A DNA stretch of 64,000 nt. It comes from Planctopirus ephydatiae. Its GTDB lineage: Bacteria > Planctomycetota > Planctomycetia > Planctomycetales > Planctomycetaceae. The position numbers were made by a program, and so were the translations under genes. Of the stretch, positions 6,354-13,654 are shown one piece after another; position 1 is the first letter of the stretch, and every line of letters starts with the position of its first letter. The notes beneath the pieces are model-generated. The model was not told the origin of the DNA. It ran no database searches and saw only the letters and a list, made by a program, of their open reading frames with translations. The stretch spans positions 4,684,001 to 4,748,000 of the forward strand of contig NZ_CP036299.1 in the NCBI RefSeq assembly GCF_007752345.1, in the 5' to 3' direction.

Positions 6354-8987
6354 GTGACTCTGCACGCCGCCCCAGGAAATGAAACTGGCAAAAGTCTCGG
6401 CTTACGTCCCGAGTTGCTCGCACCGGCAGGCAGCCGTGAAGCCATTCGAGCCGCCATCGAAAATGGCGCCACGGCTGTCTACTTCGGCCTGCAATGCGGC
6501 TTTAACGCCAGGGCCAGAGCAACCAACATCGCCACGACCGATCTCCCCGAAGTCATGCAGGAACTGCACAGTCGCGGTGTTCGCGGCTATGTCACACTTA
6601 ACACGCTCATCTTTTCCGAAGAGCTCGAAGAGTTTGAGTCCATCGTCAGGCTTTGTGCCGAATCAGGGGTCGATGCCGTTCTTCTGCAGGATTTAGGAGC
6701 AGCCCGCTTATGCCAGGCAATCTGCCCTGCTCTGCCCATCCATGCTTCGACTCAGATGACACTCACCAGTGCGGAGTGCATCGAAGTCGCCAAGGAGCTG
6801 GGGATCAGCCGGGTTGTACTCCCCCGCGAACTCTCCATCGATGAGATTCACAAGCTGCACTCCGCCACCAGTATGCCGCTGGAAGCTTTTGTGCATGGTG
6901 CGTTATGCGTCGCCTATTCCGGACAGTGCCTGACGAGCGAGTCTTTGGGTGGCCGCAGTGCCAATCGGGGTCAATGCGCACAGGCTTGCCGCTTACCCTA
7001 CGAACTGATCTGCGATGGGCAGGATGTTGATCTCGGCAATGTCCGCTATCTGCTCAGTCCGCAGGATCTGGCTGCTTACGAACTGACTCCCGAACTCATC
7101 GAAGCGGGAGTGATCTCCTTCAAAATCGAAGGCCGCTTAAAAACTCCCGAATATGTGGCGAACATCACCAGGCATTATCGTGATGCGATTGATCGCAGCA
7201 CCATGGGGGAGCTTCCTCAATGGACACCTGAAGTTCGCCGAGAAATGGAGTTGAGCTTCTCACGCGGCTTTTCGACAGGCTGGCTGAAAGGGTGCGATCA
7301 CAAAGAACTTGTCCCTGGCCTCTCTTCGAGCAAGCGGGGTGTACTTCTGGGAAAAGTGTTGCGCGTGGCCCCACCACGCATTCTGCTCAGACTCGAAAGC
7401 CCGCTAAACCGTGGCGATGGAGTCGTCTTCGACGGCGACCGCACCACAGGTGAAGAGCAGGGGGGCCGTGTCTACGAACTCTTCACACCTCGGCAGAATG
7501 GCCAATCCTTGCGATTGGAAGGGACTGCGGAAGCTGGCCTGGTCGAAGTGGAGTTCGCCACCGGTGCCATCGATTTTGCAAAGATCTCGCCCGAGCAGAA
7601 ACTGTGGAAAACCGATGATCCTCAGCTGATTCAAAAACTTCGCCGCACATTCACAGGGCCGGAAGCTCTGGCCCGCATGCCACTCGATCTGCAGGTCATG
7701 GCTCGAGCTGGCGAAACTCTGCAAGTCTCAGCTCGTCTCTATCGTCAGGATGGCACGAGTCTGCCGACCGTGGTCGTTACCTCGACCGAACCACTTCCCG
7801 TGGCCACAAAACATGCGGTCACGGAAAGCTATCTGCTCGAACAGTTGGGACGCCTGGGGCATACCCCTTTTGCGATACGTGATCTCTCTGCCGAGATTGT
7901 GGGCGGCCCGATGGTTCCCATGAGCCTGCTTTCCAAAGTCCGGCAGGAACTCATCCGCCAACTCCTCGAAGCTCTGGCCATTCCGGAAACTCATACAGCA
8001 GCCACCCAGCCCATTCTCACCACCTGGCGCCAGCGCCTGCAGCAATCGCGTATTGAAAGCCTCCTTCCCGAAGAGAAATCGACAACAGCAAATCAAACTC
8101 TACTCCCGCAACTTCTCGTCATGGTGCGGCAGCCCGCACAACTGGAGCATCTTGTTCCCGCAGAGCTGGAACTCCCTGGCCAGGCACAACTCGGTGGCGT
8201 GTATGTCGACTTCGCTGATATTCGCGAGTACCGCCAGGCCGCCGAGTGGGGACGCACGCATGGAGTGAAGGTCTGGCTGGCCACGCCACGCATTCAGAAA
8301 CCGGGCGAATATCCCATTTTTGCCGCGATGGCCAAACATGCTCCCGCTGGTTTTCTGGTGCGAAATCTCGCAGGGATTGATTTCTGTACTCGTAAAAACA
8401 TCCCCTTTGTGATCGATTTCTCGCTCAATTGCGCGAACGAACTGACAGCCGAGTACCTGGAAGGCTTTGGCCCTGAACGACTGACCCTTTCCTATGATCT
8501 GAACCGCGAACAACTTCTCGACCTGGTGCGTGCCACCCGGCCGCAACGGCTCGAAGTCGTCATTCACCAACAGATGCCCATGTTCCATATGGAGCATTGT
8601 GTCTTCTGTGCTGTCCTTTCGCCGGGAACCAATAAAACGAACTGCGGCCGCCCTTGCGACGACCACTTTGTCGAACTCCGCGATCGTGTCGGTATGCAGC
8701 ATCCCCTCACAGCCGATGTCGGTTGCCGGAACACGCTGTTCAATGCCCAGCCTCAAAGTGCTGCCGAGGTTGTTCCAGAACTACTTGAGCAGGGGGTGAA
8801 AAACTTCCGCCTCGAGTTTCTGAATCAGGATCGTCAGACCATCCGCCGAACGATCTGCGAATATCAGGCACTGCTCAACGGCCAAAGGAAAGGCCGTGAA
8901 GTCTGGCAATCGCTCAGTGCGATGAATCGCGTGGGTGTCACTCGCGGCACTCTCGAAGAACGTCGGAACCCACTGGCCATCCTGTAG
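6354..8987 (+). CDS. U32-family peptidase / RlhA-like protein with DUF3656-type region
   Basis: A long (877-residue) U32 protein. The N-terminal barrel starts at ELLAPAGSREAIRAA (residue ~20). The signature HGALCVAYSGQC lies around residue 180, followed by GRSANRGQCAQACRLPY, as in E. coli RlhA, where U32 proteins hydroxylate rRNA or tRNA and bind an iron-sulfur cluster. The middle (~340-560) fits the DUF3656 insert. The last third is a second barrel-like region with a further cysteine set (CVFCAVL, CGRPC, near 755-775). RNA modification is more likely than proteolysis, given what is known of RlhA and TrhP. Start is GTG 6354 with AGAAGG upstream. The ComEA-like gene begins 13 bases after its stop, suggesting co-transcription. 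Confidence 0.9.
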   Translation: MTLHAAPGNETGKSLGLRPELLAPAGSREAIRAAIENGATAVYFGLQCGFNARARATNIATTDLPEVMQELHSRGVRGYVTLNTLIFSEELEEFESIVRLCAESGVDAVLLQDLGAARLCQAICPALPIHASTQMTLTSAECIEVAKELGISRVVLPRELSIDEIHKLHSATSMPLEAFVHGALCVAYSGQCLTSESLGGRSANRGQCAQACRLPYELICDGQDVDLGNVRYLLSPQDLAAYELTPELIEAGVISFKIEGRLKTPEYVANITRHYRDAIDRSTMGELPQWTPEVRREMELSFSRGFSTGWLKGCDHKELVPGLSSSKRGVLLGKVLRVAPPRILLRLESPLNRGDGVVFDGDRTTGEEQGGRVYELFTPRQNGQSLRLEGTAEAGLVEVEFATGAIDFAKISPEQKLWKTDDPQLIQKLRRTFTGPEALARMPLDLQVMARAGETLQVSARLYRQDGTSLPTVVVTSTEPLPVATKHAVTESYLLEQLGRLGHTPFAIRDLSAEIVGGPMVPMSLLSKVRQELIRQLLEALAIPETHTAATQPILTTWRQRLQQSRIESLLPEEKSTTANQTLLPQLLVMVRQPAQLEHLVPAELELPGQAQLGGVYVDFADIREYRQAAEWGRTHGVKVWLATPRIQKPGEYPIFAAMAKHAPAGFLVRNLAGIDFCTRKNIPFVIDFSLNCANELTAEYLEGFGPERLTLSYDLNREQLLDLVRATRPQRLEVVIHQQMPMFHMEHCVFCAVLSPGTNKTNCGRPCDDHFVELRDRVGMQHPLTADVGCRNTLFNAQPQSAAEVVPELLEQGVKNFRLEFLNQDRQTIRRTICEYQALLNGQRKGREVWQSLSAMNRVGVTRGTLEERRNPLAIL

Positions 8988-10167: not shown

Positions 10168-11970
10168 TCACGATACTGCTCCGGCCTCACCGGCCCATGC
10201 CGGTGGTGGAGCCGTAAACTCCATCGTTGTTCGATCCACTGGATGCTGAAAGCGAATTCGCCAGGCATGCAGACACATGACCTGCTCAGAATCCTTGGGT
10301 TCTGTCGCCAGTTCACCACCTGGCATATAGAGAGGATCTCCCAGAATCGGCAGTCCCAAATGCCACAAATGCACTCGGATCTGATTGGTCCGGCCAGTGA
10401 TGGGCCGCACTTCCAAAAGGCTAGTTCCATCCCCCAGACGCTGCACCAGTCGGAAGAGGGTACTCGCCTCGACTCCTCCCGATTCATCAATCTCGCGTGA
10501 ACCCATCACCCCGGCCACATCCGTCATGGGTGCATGGCATTCGAAGCTCTCCTCGGCAGGCTCGCCCTGAACTCGGGCCAGATAAACCTTTTCGACTTCC
10601 CGCCGGGAGAACTGTGGCTGCAAGCGCCCCGCCATGTGCCGCGTTCGCGATAACACCAGCACGCCCGTCGTCATCGCATCCAGCCGATGGGCCGCCCGAG
10701 GACTTTGCGGATCGTAGATCTGTGCCAGCAGGTACTGCAGCGTGTTGCGATGAAACCGGCCACTGGCATGCACCGGGAGTGGTGCCGGCTTGTTGATCAC
10801 CACGATCGACTCGTCTTCATACAGCCAGCGAATATCGGCATTCACAGCAGGCTCGATGGTTCCCGGCAAGCGATGAATGATCCGCTGGCCAGGGTGTACC
10901 GTCTCATCGAGCCGCATGGGCGCGAAGGTCTCGCTCAGCAGCCGACCTTCCAACTCAGCACTTTCCCACACGCCCGCTTCCAGATGAGGCAGCACCTGCT
11001 GCAGGAATTCTCTCACAGTCAGACCAGCATGCTTCTGCGACACCTGCAAAGGTCGATCATTCACATACGAAACACACCCGGGCAAGGGATCGATCAATCC
11101 CTGCAGCATTCTTTCACGTTCCCGCAGGCCGTCTTCCATTTCCTGGGCTGACGTTTTGAAACAGTAAGGACACGACTGACCGATGACATAGCGTGGATCG
11201 GCCTGTTCTTCCGGTACCAGTGGCGTCTGACACCTGAGACACTGCGTCGTCGAAGATTCCTCCAGATTGGGATCAACCCCCACCCGCTGATCGAAAACGA
11301 AGCACTCCCCCTGATAGTGAGCACTGCCACACTCTTCAAAGTATTTCAGAATGCCGCCATCAAGCTGATAGACCTGCTCGTAACCTTCCTTCACGAAAAA
11401 CGGGCCAGCCTTCTCACAGCGAATCCCTCCCGTGCAGAACATGACCACGGGCTGCTTCTTGAGTTCTGGAGGCAACTTCTGGCGCGATACCTCAGGAAAA
11501 TCGCGAAACGTCGCCAGATTGAGATCAATCGCGTTTTCGAATGTCCCGAGTTTGACTTCGTAATCATTGCGCGTGTCCAGCAACGTCACCGGGCGGCCCT
11601 CATCCAGCCAGGCCTTGAGCTCCTTGGGTGAAAGCTTCGGCGCGGGTTGCCGGCTGGGGTCAATCTCCGGGAGCCCAAAGGCAATAATCTCCCGCTTGAT
11701 CCGCACGAGCATCCGCGTGAAGGGCTGATGATCACTCGGGCTGTACTTGGCTGGCAAACCCTCCAACCCCGGGATCTTCCGCACCTCTTCAAGGAGTTCT
11801 TCCACCTTTTCCGGGAAGCCAGCGATGAACATATTGATCCCCTCAGTACTGAGGAGAATCGTTCCTTTCAGCTCCCGGGCATGGCAAAACGAAAGCAGTT
11901 TTTCCCGCAAGGGCTTCAAATCCGCCAGCGGGGCAAAACGATAAGTCGAAATATTCGTGTAAACTGACAT
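10168..11970 (-). CDS. Fusion of tRNA uridine hydroxylase TrhO (rhodanese) and RluA-type pseudouridine synthase
   Basis: One 600-residue chain holds two RNA-modifying enzymes. Residues 1-~225 match TrhO (YceA): an N-terminal ferredoxin-like domain (STEGINMFIAG) and a rhodanese domain with the catalytic cysteine loop CTGGIRCEKA. TrhO uses oxygen to make 5-hydroxyuridine at tRNA position 34. A Cys4 zinc ribbon (CLRCQTPL, CPYC) follows at ~240-275. A degenerate S4-like segment (~290-365) comes next. The C-terminal pseudouridine synthase (~375-590) has HRLDAMTTG with the catalytic Asp, plus RPITGRTNQIRVH. ATG 11970 begins at the TrhO homology; the frame extends back to 12153 without it. The pseudouridine target cannot be told from sequence. 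Confidence 0.92.
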   Translation of the reverse strand: MSVYTNISTYRFAPLADLKPLREKLLSFCHARELKGTILLSTEGINMFIAGFPEKVEELLEEVRKIPGLEGLPAKYSPSDHQPFTRMLVRIKREIIAFGLPEIDPSRQPAPKLSPKELKAWLDEGRPVTLLDTRNDYEVKLGTFENAIDLNLATFRDFPEVSRQKLPPELKKQPVVMFCTGGIRCEKAGPFFVKEGYEQVYQLDGGILKYFEECGSAHYQGECFVFDQRVGVDPNLEESSTTQCLRCQTPLVPEEQADPRYVIGQSCPYCFKTSAQEMEDGLRERERMLQGLIDPLPGCVSYVNDRPLQVSQKHAGLTVREFLQQVLPHLEAGVWESAELEGRLLSETFAPMRLDETVHPGQRIIHRLPGTIEPAVNADIRWLYEDESIVVINKPAPLPVHASGRFHRNTLQYLLAQIYDPQSPRAAHRLDAMTTGVLVLSRTRHMAGRLQPQFSRREVEKVYLARVQGEPAEESFECHAPMTDVAGVMGSREIDESGGVEASTLFRLVQRLGDGTSLLEVRPITGRTNQIRVHLWHLGLPILGDPLYMPGGELATEPKDSEQVMCLHAWRIRFQHPVDRTTMEFTAPPPAWAGEAGAVS

Positions 11971-12094: not shown

Positions 12095-13654
12095 ATGGAG
12101 CGGCAACTGGCACACTTCGCCTGGAGCCTGATCTTCTGTCTGATGGCAGGCATGTCCCTCGCCCATCCTTGTCAAGCCGCCCACGAACCCTTGGGTATTC
12201 GCATGACCGACCGTGCGACAGGACGCGGAATTCCGCTGGTAGAACTGACTTCCACCACTCACGAAAAGTGGTTTACCGACAGTGCCGGGTGGGTGGTAAT
12301 CGATCAACCCGATCTCATGGGCCGGGAACTTCACCTGGCAATCGAGTCACCCGGTTATCTCGCTCCCAAAGATGGATTTGGCATCACAGGCCAGCGGGTC
12401 AAAGTCGAACCGGGGAAGAAAGTGACAATTTCACTCGAGCGCCAACAAATGGCCGAAAGGCTCTATCGCACCACGGGTCATGGCATTTTTCGAGCCGCTC
12501 GCAGACTGGAAATCCCCAATCTTCCCAAAGAACCATCAACCGAGGCGCGCATTGCCGGTTGCGACAGTGTGCTCGTTGCCAGATATCGAAATCAACTCCA
12601 CTGGTTCTGGGGAGACACCCCTGTTCTCGAATATCCTCTCGGCAACTTTCATATGACGGGTGCCAACACACCTTTACCATCGGAAGTACCGCCTCTCGAT
12701 CAGCAGCCGCCATTTTATCACTACTTTGTCAAACCGGATGGTGCCGTCAAACCAATGATGCCCATGCCCGGAGATGGCCCCACCTGGATGGGTGGCTTAT
12801 TCACCATCCGCGATACGACCAGCCAGGAGCGTATGGTGGCTGGTTACTCCAAGATCAGGAACGGTCTCGAATCGTACCGCTGGGGCTTAGCCGTCTGGAA
12901 TGATGGCGAAAACCAGTTTGAACCACTTTGTGAGTTTCCCGCAGGAAAATCGTTCTACCCGATCTCGCAGAATCATGTCCTGCAGACGACGACCGAACCT
13001 GAAGACGATCGCTATTTTTACTTCTGCCAACCCTTCCCCCTGGTGCGAGTTCTGAAAACCTGGGACGCTATCCAGTCCATCGATCGCTACGAAAGCTATA
13101 CCTGCGAAGCTGCCCACTCGACAGAAGAATCGCCCGCTCTGGATCGCGATGCCCACGGGCTTTTGAAATACGAGTGGAAAAGTGGATTCAAACCACTCAC
13201 ATCGGCTCGACTTCAACAATGGATCAAACTGGGGTTACTCAAAGAACAGGAAAGCCTGATCGCTCTCACGGATTGTTCCACCGGCAAGCCCATCGAAGTT
13301 CATTACGGCTCAACCAGTTGGAATCCTTATCGCAAACAGTACATCACCATTTTCTCGCAGCTTCATGGCGAGAAATCGAAAGATCGGCCCGCCTCGACGC
13401 TGGGGAATGTCTGGTTGACCGAAGCCCCTTCGCTCACCGGCCCGTGGAGCAAAGCGACCCTCCTGGCCACTCACGGCCACTACTCCTTCTATAACCCCTT
13501 GCAGCACCCGGAGTTTTCCGAGCAGAAAGGCCGCATTATCTACTTTGAAGGGACATTCACCAAATCATTCTCCGGCTTGACCGAAAGCGTCCCACTCTAC
13601 GAGTACAACCAGCTCATGTATCGCGTCGATCTGGAGCACGTCAAAGCGGAATAA
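12095..13654 (+). CDS. Secreted protein with carboxypeptidase-regulatory-like domain and glycosidase-like propeller
   Basis: 519 residues beginning with a signal peptide (hydrophobic ~7-27, cleavage near CQAAHEP). Residues ~30-110 form a regulatory-like beta-sandwich (TDRATGRGIPLVELTS, then ESPGYLAPKDGFGITG, then KVTISLERQ). The rest is rich in aromatic, Asp and Gly motifs (WFWGDTP, TWMGGLF, SYRWGLAVW, YFEGTFT) as in beta-propeller proteins related to glycosidase clans. Catalytic residues cannot be assigned. Such proteins are common in planctomycete polysaccharide-handling gene sets, but no sulfatase or hydrolase partner sits here. ATG 12095 has AAAGG upstream and precedes the signal peptide directly. 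It is divergent from the TrhO-RluA gene, 124 bases away. Confidence 0.83.
   Translation: MERQLAHFAWSLIFCLMAGMSLAHPCQAAHEPLGIRMTDRATGRGIPLVELTSTTHEKWFTDSAGWVVIDQPDLMGRELHLAIESPGYLAPKDGFGITGQRVKVEPGKKVTISLERQQMAERLYRTTGHGIFRAARRLEIPNLPKEPSTEARIAGCDSVLVARYRNQLHWFWGDTPVLEYPLGNFHMTGANTPLPSEVPPLDQQPPFYHYFVKPDGAVKPMMPMPGDGPTWMGGLFTIRDTTSQERMVAGYSKIRNGLESYRWGLAVWNDGENQFEPLCEFPAGKSFYPISQNHVLQTTTEPEDDRYFYFCQPFPLVRVLKTWDAIQSIDRYESYTCEAAHSTEESPALDRDAHGLLKYEWKSGFKPLTSARLQQWIKLGLLKEQESLIALTDCSTGKPIEVHYGSTSWNPYRKQYITIFSQLHGEKSKDRPASTLGNVWLTEAPSLTGPWSKATLLATHGHYSFYNPLQHPEFSEQKGRIIYFEGTFTKSFSGLTESVPLYEYNQLMYRVDLEHVKAE

Follow-up and report, generated by a model that had tools for sequence, protein, structure and literature searches.

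A conserved fusion of a TrhO-type tRNA hydroxylase and a pseudouridine synthase in Planctopirus ephydatiae

The fusion gene and its two halves

The window, which is the whole stretch of 64,000 nucleotides analysed from contig NZ_CP036299.1 of Planctopirus ephydatiae, contains a minus-strand gene whose product carries two RNA-modifying enzymes on a single chain of 600 residues (Table 1). Such a chain had been proposed in an earlier note on this DNA, and it is borne out by the one open frame and the domain matches. An alternative in-frame ATG lies upstream at 12153; in alignments, however, relatives start near residue 1 of the 600-residue form. The CTGGIRC and HRLDAMTTG motifs are intact and stand where the note had placed them, and the two enzyme families to which it had assigned the halves, TrhO and pseudouridine synthase, are confirmed by Pfam and NCBIfam profiles.

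Table 1. Features of the fusion gene and their positions in the window
Feature	Position	Strand	Basis
TrhO–pseudouridine synthase fusion gene	10168..11970	(-)	Frame unbroken from 11970 down to 10168, 600 aa + stop; kept in 63 distinct homologues
UPF0176_N (acylphosphatase-like), residues 4-95	11686..11961	(-)	Pfam PF17773, E 6.4e-24
Rhodanese domain, residues 114-211	11338..11631	(-)	Pfam PF00581, E 6.5e-12
CTGGIRC active-site loop, residues 179-185	11416..11436	(-)	Invariant in 63/63 fusions
Cys4 ribbon (C244, C247, C267, C270), TrhO C-terminal region	11161..11241	(-)	Invariant in 63/63 fusions
Linker helix, residues 274-292, then conserved LPGSxPYDNxRPxNVP	11095..11151	(-)	Predicted model and alignments
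S4-like RNA-binding segment (putative), residues ~310-371	10858..11043	(-)	TIGR00005 match from residue 315; RluD alignment
RluA-family pseudouridine synthase catalytic domain, residues ~380-595	10186..10833	(-)	Pfam PF00849, E 4.4e-29; fold match to RluA
HRLDAMTTG catalytic motif, residues 428-436, Asp431	10663..10689	(-)	HRLD in 61/63 Planctomycetota fusions and 78/79 genome_contigs fusions

A full TrhO-type tRNA U34 hydroxylase spans residues 1–275 and scores well above the cut-off of the NCBIfam TrhO equivalog NF001133 (247.5 bits against 170). The Pfam Rhodanese_C model reached 21.6 bits at residues 220-251, against a curated threshold of 26.9, and all four cysteines are present. Mutagenesis of E. 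coli TrhO has revealed C200, T201, G203, and R205 as essential residues (PMC6599085). They correspond to C179, T180, G182, and R184 of the fusion, which are invariant in 63 of 63 fusions, and the basic tRNA-binding residues K112 and R114 of the E. coli enzyme correspond to R90 and K92, where the charge is the same and the residues differ. Fold comparison matched the TrhO half to the TrhO structure 4f67 (Z 30.0, 245 aligned residues, 2.2 Å) and to 9j5o, a complex of B. subtilis TrhO with tRNA (Z 28.4, 277 aligned residues, 4.8 Å). As to separate trhO and rluA genes, no second TrhO was found in the window genome, where the fusion is the sole TrhO, and six other proteins with PseudoU_synth_2 (PF00849) occur.

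The halves had been thought to be joined by the Cys4 ribbon, which proved wrong. The same motif occurs in standalone TrhO of E. coli, of plasmid records, and of planctomycete records, and judged from these sequences the ribbon is a regular component of TrhO. The predicted model and the alignments place the true joint at residues ~274-310, comprising the helix 274-292 and the LPGSxPYDNxRPxNVP stretch. An S4-like segment, also proposed earlier, is supported by the start of the TIGR00005 match at residue 315 and by full-length RluD (2ist), which aligned over residues 301-598 in the fold comparison (Z 22.4-23.4, rmsd 7.7); the profile search returned no Pfam S4 match in the fusion protein, and the segment is listed as putative. 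An AlphaFold2 model built from 45 fusion sequences has a mean pLDDT of 90.2 and a pTM of 0.63, which indicates well-folded domains and an uncertain arrangement of these relative to one another.

The C-terminal half matches PseudoU_synth_2 (PF00849) at residues 389-535 with 102.1 bits against a curated 26.8, and the NCBIfam RluA subfamily TIGR00005 with 195.8 bits against a cut-off of 192.7. Folded alone, it aligned with RluA (2i82) over 209 residues (Z 26.8, 2.2 Å), and full-length RluD aligned with it from its second residue onward (rmsd 7.7). HRLD, the motif II tyrosine, and GRTNQIR are all present in the fusion and predict an active pseudouridine synthase. The label RluA-type thus holds at the superfamily level and fails as a statement of orthology, since no E. 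coli equivalog cut-off is reached and the half stands in a clade by itself. The RluA equivalog NF007543, which represents the enzyme making Psi32 and Psi746, gave 96.7 bits (cut-off 286), and those of RluC, RluD, and TruC gave 82.5, 89.9, and 79.9 bits (cut-offs 378, 351, and 328). In the synthase tree the fusion halves group with SH-aLRT 98, apart from RluA, TruC, RluC, and RluD and not as sister to E. coli RluA, the placement of this clade among long branches being unsure. The best E. coli BLAST match is RluA in 56 of 66 fusions and RluC in 10, with small margins. Profiles, BLAST, and the tree all failed to assign the half to one E. coli enzyme, RluA being nearest by a small margin only; it is a subfamily of its own and not an RluA orthologue.

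Neighbouring genes are kept only in the congener, which gives no operon evidence. At 6354-8987 on the plus strand, 1.2 kb from the fusion, the window contains the genome's only U32 gene, whose product of 877 residues combines two Peptidase_U32 stretches with DUF3656. This is the architecture of the RNA hydroxylase RlhA.

Distribution and descent of the fusion

A survey of the class found the fusion in 64 of 198 genomes, including G510, where two contigs each carry part of it, and G451, where it is broken near the end. Standalone TrhO only was found in 9 of the 198, and two fusion genomes carry an additional TrhO. A counterpart 98% identical occurs in G315. In the phylum survey, TrhO was found in 36 of 392 genomes. 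Of the best 80 matches in genome_contigs, which holds 85,000 species genomes, 79 are fusions without a break; in the remaining one, from a Verrucomicrobia MAG (L197, 2842-4785), a single in-frame stop cuts the protein precisely at the joint. The matches are labelled mostly as Planctomycetota and Verrucomicrobiota; some, such as the record Rhizobiales bacterium TNE-4, are labelled as Pseudomonadota, and a single record as Myxococcota. The fusion is the only TrhO in six of the seven genomes checked from these matches. Adjoining separate genes for TrhO and an RluA-type enzyme were absent from the four proteobacterial plasmid records checked.

The search in other genomes that the earlier note had suggested was successful. 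Recurrence of the fusion in this many class genomes and in 79 of the best 80 genome_contigs matches rules out both a sequencing error and an isolated case. The fusion protein is a real, old, and conserved two-enzyme chain. A search of the open-access literature found no paper describing a fusion of TrhO with a pseudouridine synthase; an earlier description elsewhere is possible. To our knowledge, the fusion is present in many public genomes and yet apparently unstudied.

The TrhO halves form one clade (SH-aLRT 99), inside which the solo TrhO of three genomes (G105, G058, and G518) is nested; these read as secondary losses of the synthase. Two further genomes (G466 and G478) encode the synthase alone, starting just past the place where the ribbon would end, with the joint sequence kept and the motif intact, and carry a TrhO of another lineage elsewhere in the genome. 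The lone synthase reads as a fission of the fusion. The fusion itself has essentially a single origin. Between the two halves, distances are correlated (Mantel r 0.65, p 0.001). In comparison with the congener, dN/dS is ~0.015 for TrhO, ~0.06 for the synthase domain, and ~0.09 for the linker with the S4-like part. Together these values point to a shared history and to purifying selection on both halves. None of the 63 distinct fusions departs from CTGGIRC or lacks any of the four cysteines, and the two exceptions to HRLD are the broken G451 and G339. In the latter (L155, 3696-5573), TrhO is intact and the synthase has decayed, with HPPD in place of the motif and the motif II tyrosine lost; this genome has CmoB. 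Coupling of the halves is not obligatory, because TrhO occurs alone in G105, G518, and G058, the synthase occurs alone in G466 and G478, and the synthase has decayed in G339.

Probable wobble hydroxylation and candidate targets of the synthase half

Among the 198 class genomes, CmoB, for which ho5U34 made by TrhO is the substrate, was detected in 9, each of which has TrhO (7 fusions, 2 solo). The association has a Fisher p of 9e-5, uncorrected for kinship, the nine genomes representing five genera of two families and thus a smaller effective sample. The confinement of CmoB to TrhO-bearing genomes of the class lends indirect support to real formation of ho5U34. No convincing CmoB was detected in the window genome (a match of 24 bits to part of the model), and PF01596, the TrmR-type family, had no match there. 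Since neither methyltransferase was found, ho5U34 is probably unprocessed by known routes in this genome, and 55 of the 64 fusion genomes likewise have neither CmoB nor a strong PF01596 match. As a proxy for TrmR, PF01596 proved uninformative: it occurs in 59 class genomes at E 1e-10, and its strong matches are not positively associated with TrhO.

The synthase must act on a nucleotide other than U34 once this has been hydroxylated, because both reactions use C5. Five wobble-U family-box tRNAs of the window genome were compared; for tRNA-Ala(UGC), a pattern search gave no hit, and only a shortened copy in a tRNA array was recovered. Position 32 is a uridine in Pro(UGG) and Thr(UGU) and a cytidine in Leu(UAG), Ser(UGA), and Val(UAC), and apart from U33 and U34 the five share no uridine in the anticodon arm. 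C32 in three of them excludes, for this set, Psi32 as a general modification of TrhO substrates. The remaining candidate targets are position 32 in a subset of tRNAs, another tRNA position, and 23S rRNA. The suggestion that the two modifications fall on one RNA, perhaps on the same anticodon arm, is still inference: Psi32 is weakened by the three tRNAs with C32 and possible for the two with U32, and a common target in the anticodon arm agrees only in part with the tRNAs of this genome.

Packed, low-scoring tRNA-like genes with many anticodons were observed outside the standard tRNA set, at 1306-1307 kb, 1556-1559 kb, and 2313-2315 kb of G000:C1 (L163, L173, and L171). These clusters are perhaps phage-type tRNA arrays.

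Possible roles and comparison with known systems

The reading that we favor, with a probability of roughly one half, is a bifunctional RNA-modifying enzyme that forms ho5U34 and a pseudouridine elsewhere in the same tRNA. The TrhO half would very likely use O2 and the cysteine of the CTGGIR loop to hydroxylate C5 of the wobble U34 in family-box tRNAs, as E. coli TrhO does. The TrhO and S4-like surfaces might bring the synthase half to the same tRNA, where it would isomerise another uridine by the usual aspartate mechanism. In the window genome, the pathway probably ends at ho5U34 or continues through an enzyme other than CmoB or TrmR. A more far-reaching and tentative proposal is that the synthase half represents a new site-specific tRNA pseudouridine synthase coupled to wobble hydroxylation, and that the fusion serves a planctomycete-verrucomicrobial lineage as a two-step maturation enzyme of the anticodon region, with ho5U34 and not cmo5U34 as the usual end product.

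The two enzymes could also serve two RNAs, the TrhO half forming ho5U34 in tRNA and the synthase half acting on 23S rRNA, as do RluC, RluD, and, in its second activity, RluA, so that fusion would provide co-expression and a shared RNA-binding surface. This is possible, and it agrees with the alignment of full-length RluD, S4 domain included, over residues 301-598, with the rank of the rRNA enzymes RluC and RluD, which among E. coli proteins come closest to the half after RluA, and with C32 in three of the five wobble-U tRNAs, which speaks against a general Psi32. The best single E. coli match, however, is RluA (56 of 66 fusions), which also makes Psi32 in tRNA; joining to a tRNA enzyme most simply means a shared substrate, and the window genome already has two RluD-like proteins.

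The pseudouridine synthases TruB and TruA act as tRNA chaperones apart from catalysis, and by this precedent the synthase and S4-like half might mainly be an RNA-binding or folding module for TrhO, with catalysis secondary or dispensable. The intact TrhO of G339 beside its decayed synthase motifs and the dropping of the half by some members of the clade would fit such a module, which is nonetheless unlikely given that HRLD is retained in 61 of 63 and 78 of 79 fusions, that dN/dS of the synthase half is low, and that G466 and G478 keep the half alone with an intact motif. The idea that two adjacent genes were joined by a sequencing or annotation error, for which the stop at the joint of the one MAG might be cited, is refuted by independent genomes, the frame being unbroken in dozens of independent assemblies and the window genome being one 5.2 Mb contig.

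As known so far, TrhO and RluA-type enzymes are separate proteins, and their stable, old fusion suggests that wobble hydroxylation is linked to a pseudouridine not yet placed. The bifunctional reading makes a narrow prediction, namely that one ho5U34 and one pseudouridine are lost together on loss of the gene. It also draws attention to a large bacterial group, represented by the 55 of 64 fusion genomes, in which wobble modification of tRNA may stop at ho5U34.

With TrhO (YceA, UPF0176; oxygen-dependent tRNA uridine-34 hydroxylase), the fusion shares the order of UPF0176_N, Rhodanese, and Cys4 region, the essential loop residues, and the fold of 4f67 and 9j5o. It differs by a whole pseudouridine synthase added C-terminally and, in the window genome, by the absence of CmoB and PF01596 for the next step. 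The RluA-family synthases RluA, RluC, RluD, and TruC have the same catalytic domain with the HRLD aspartate, and an S4-like N-terminal segment is found in RluC and RluD; the fusion half is set apart from them by its own clade, by scores below all equivalog cut-offs, and by the TrhO ahead of it on the same chain. Fusions of TrhO with TrmR (YceA-TrmR) have been reported in three eukaryotes by Sakai and colleagues (PMC6599085), and those of Phytophthora and Phaeodactylum likewise place TrhO on one chain with another tRNA-modifying enzyme, which by analogy offers a precedent for the present fusion. The partner in YceA-TrmR is a methyltransferase acting on the same nucleotide, whereas here it is a pseudouridine synthase whose target is necessarily another uridine.
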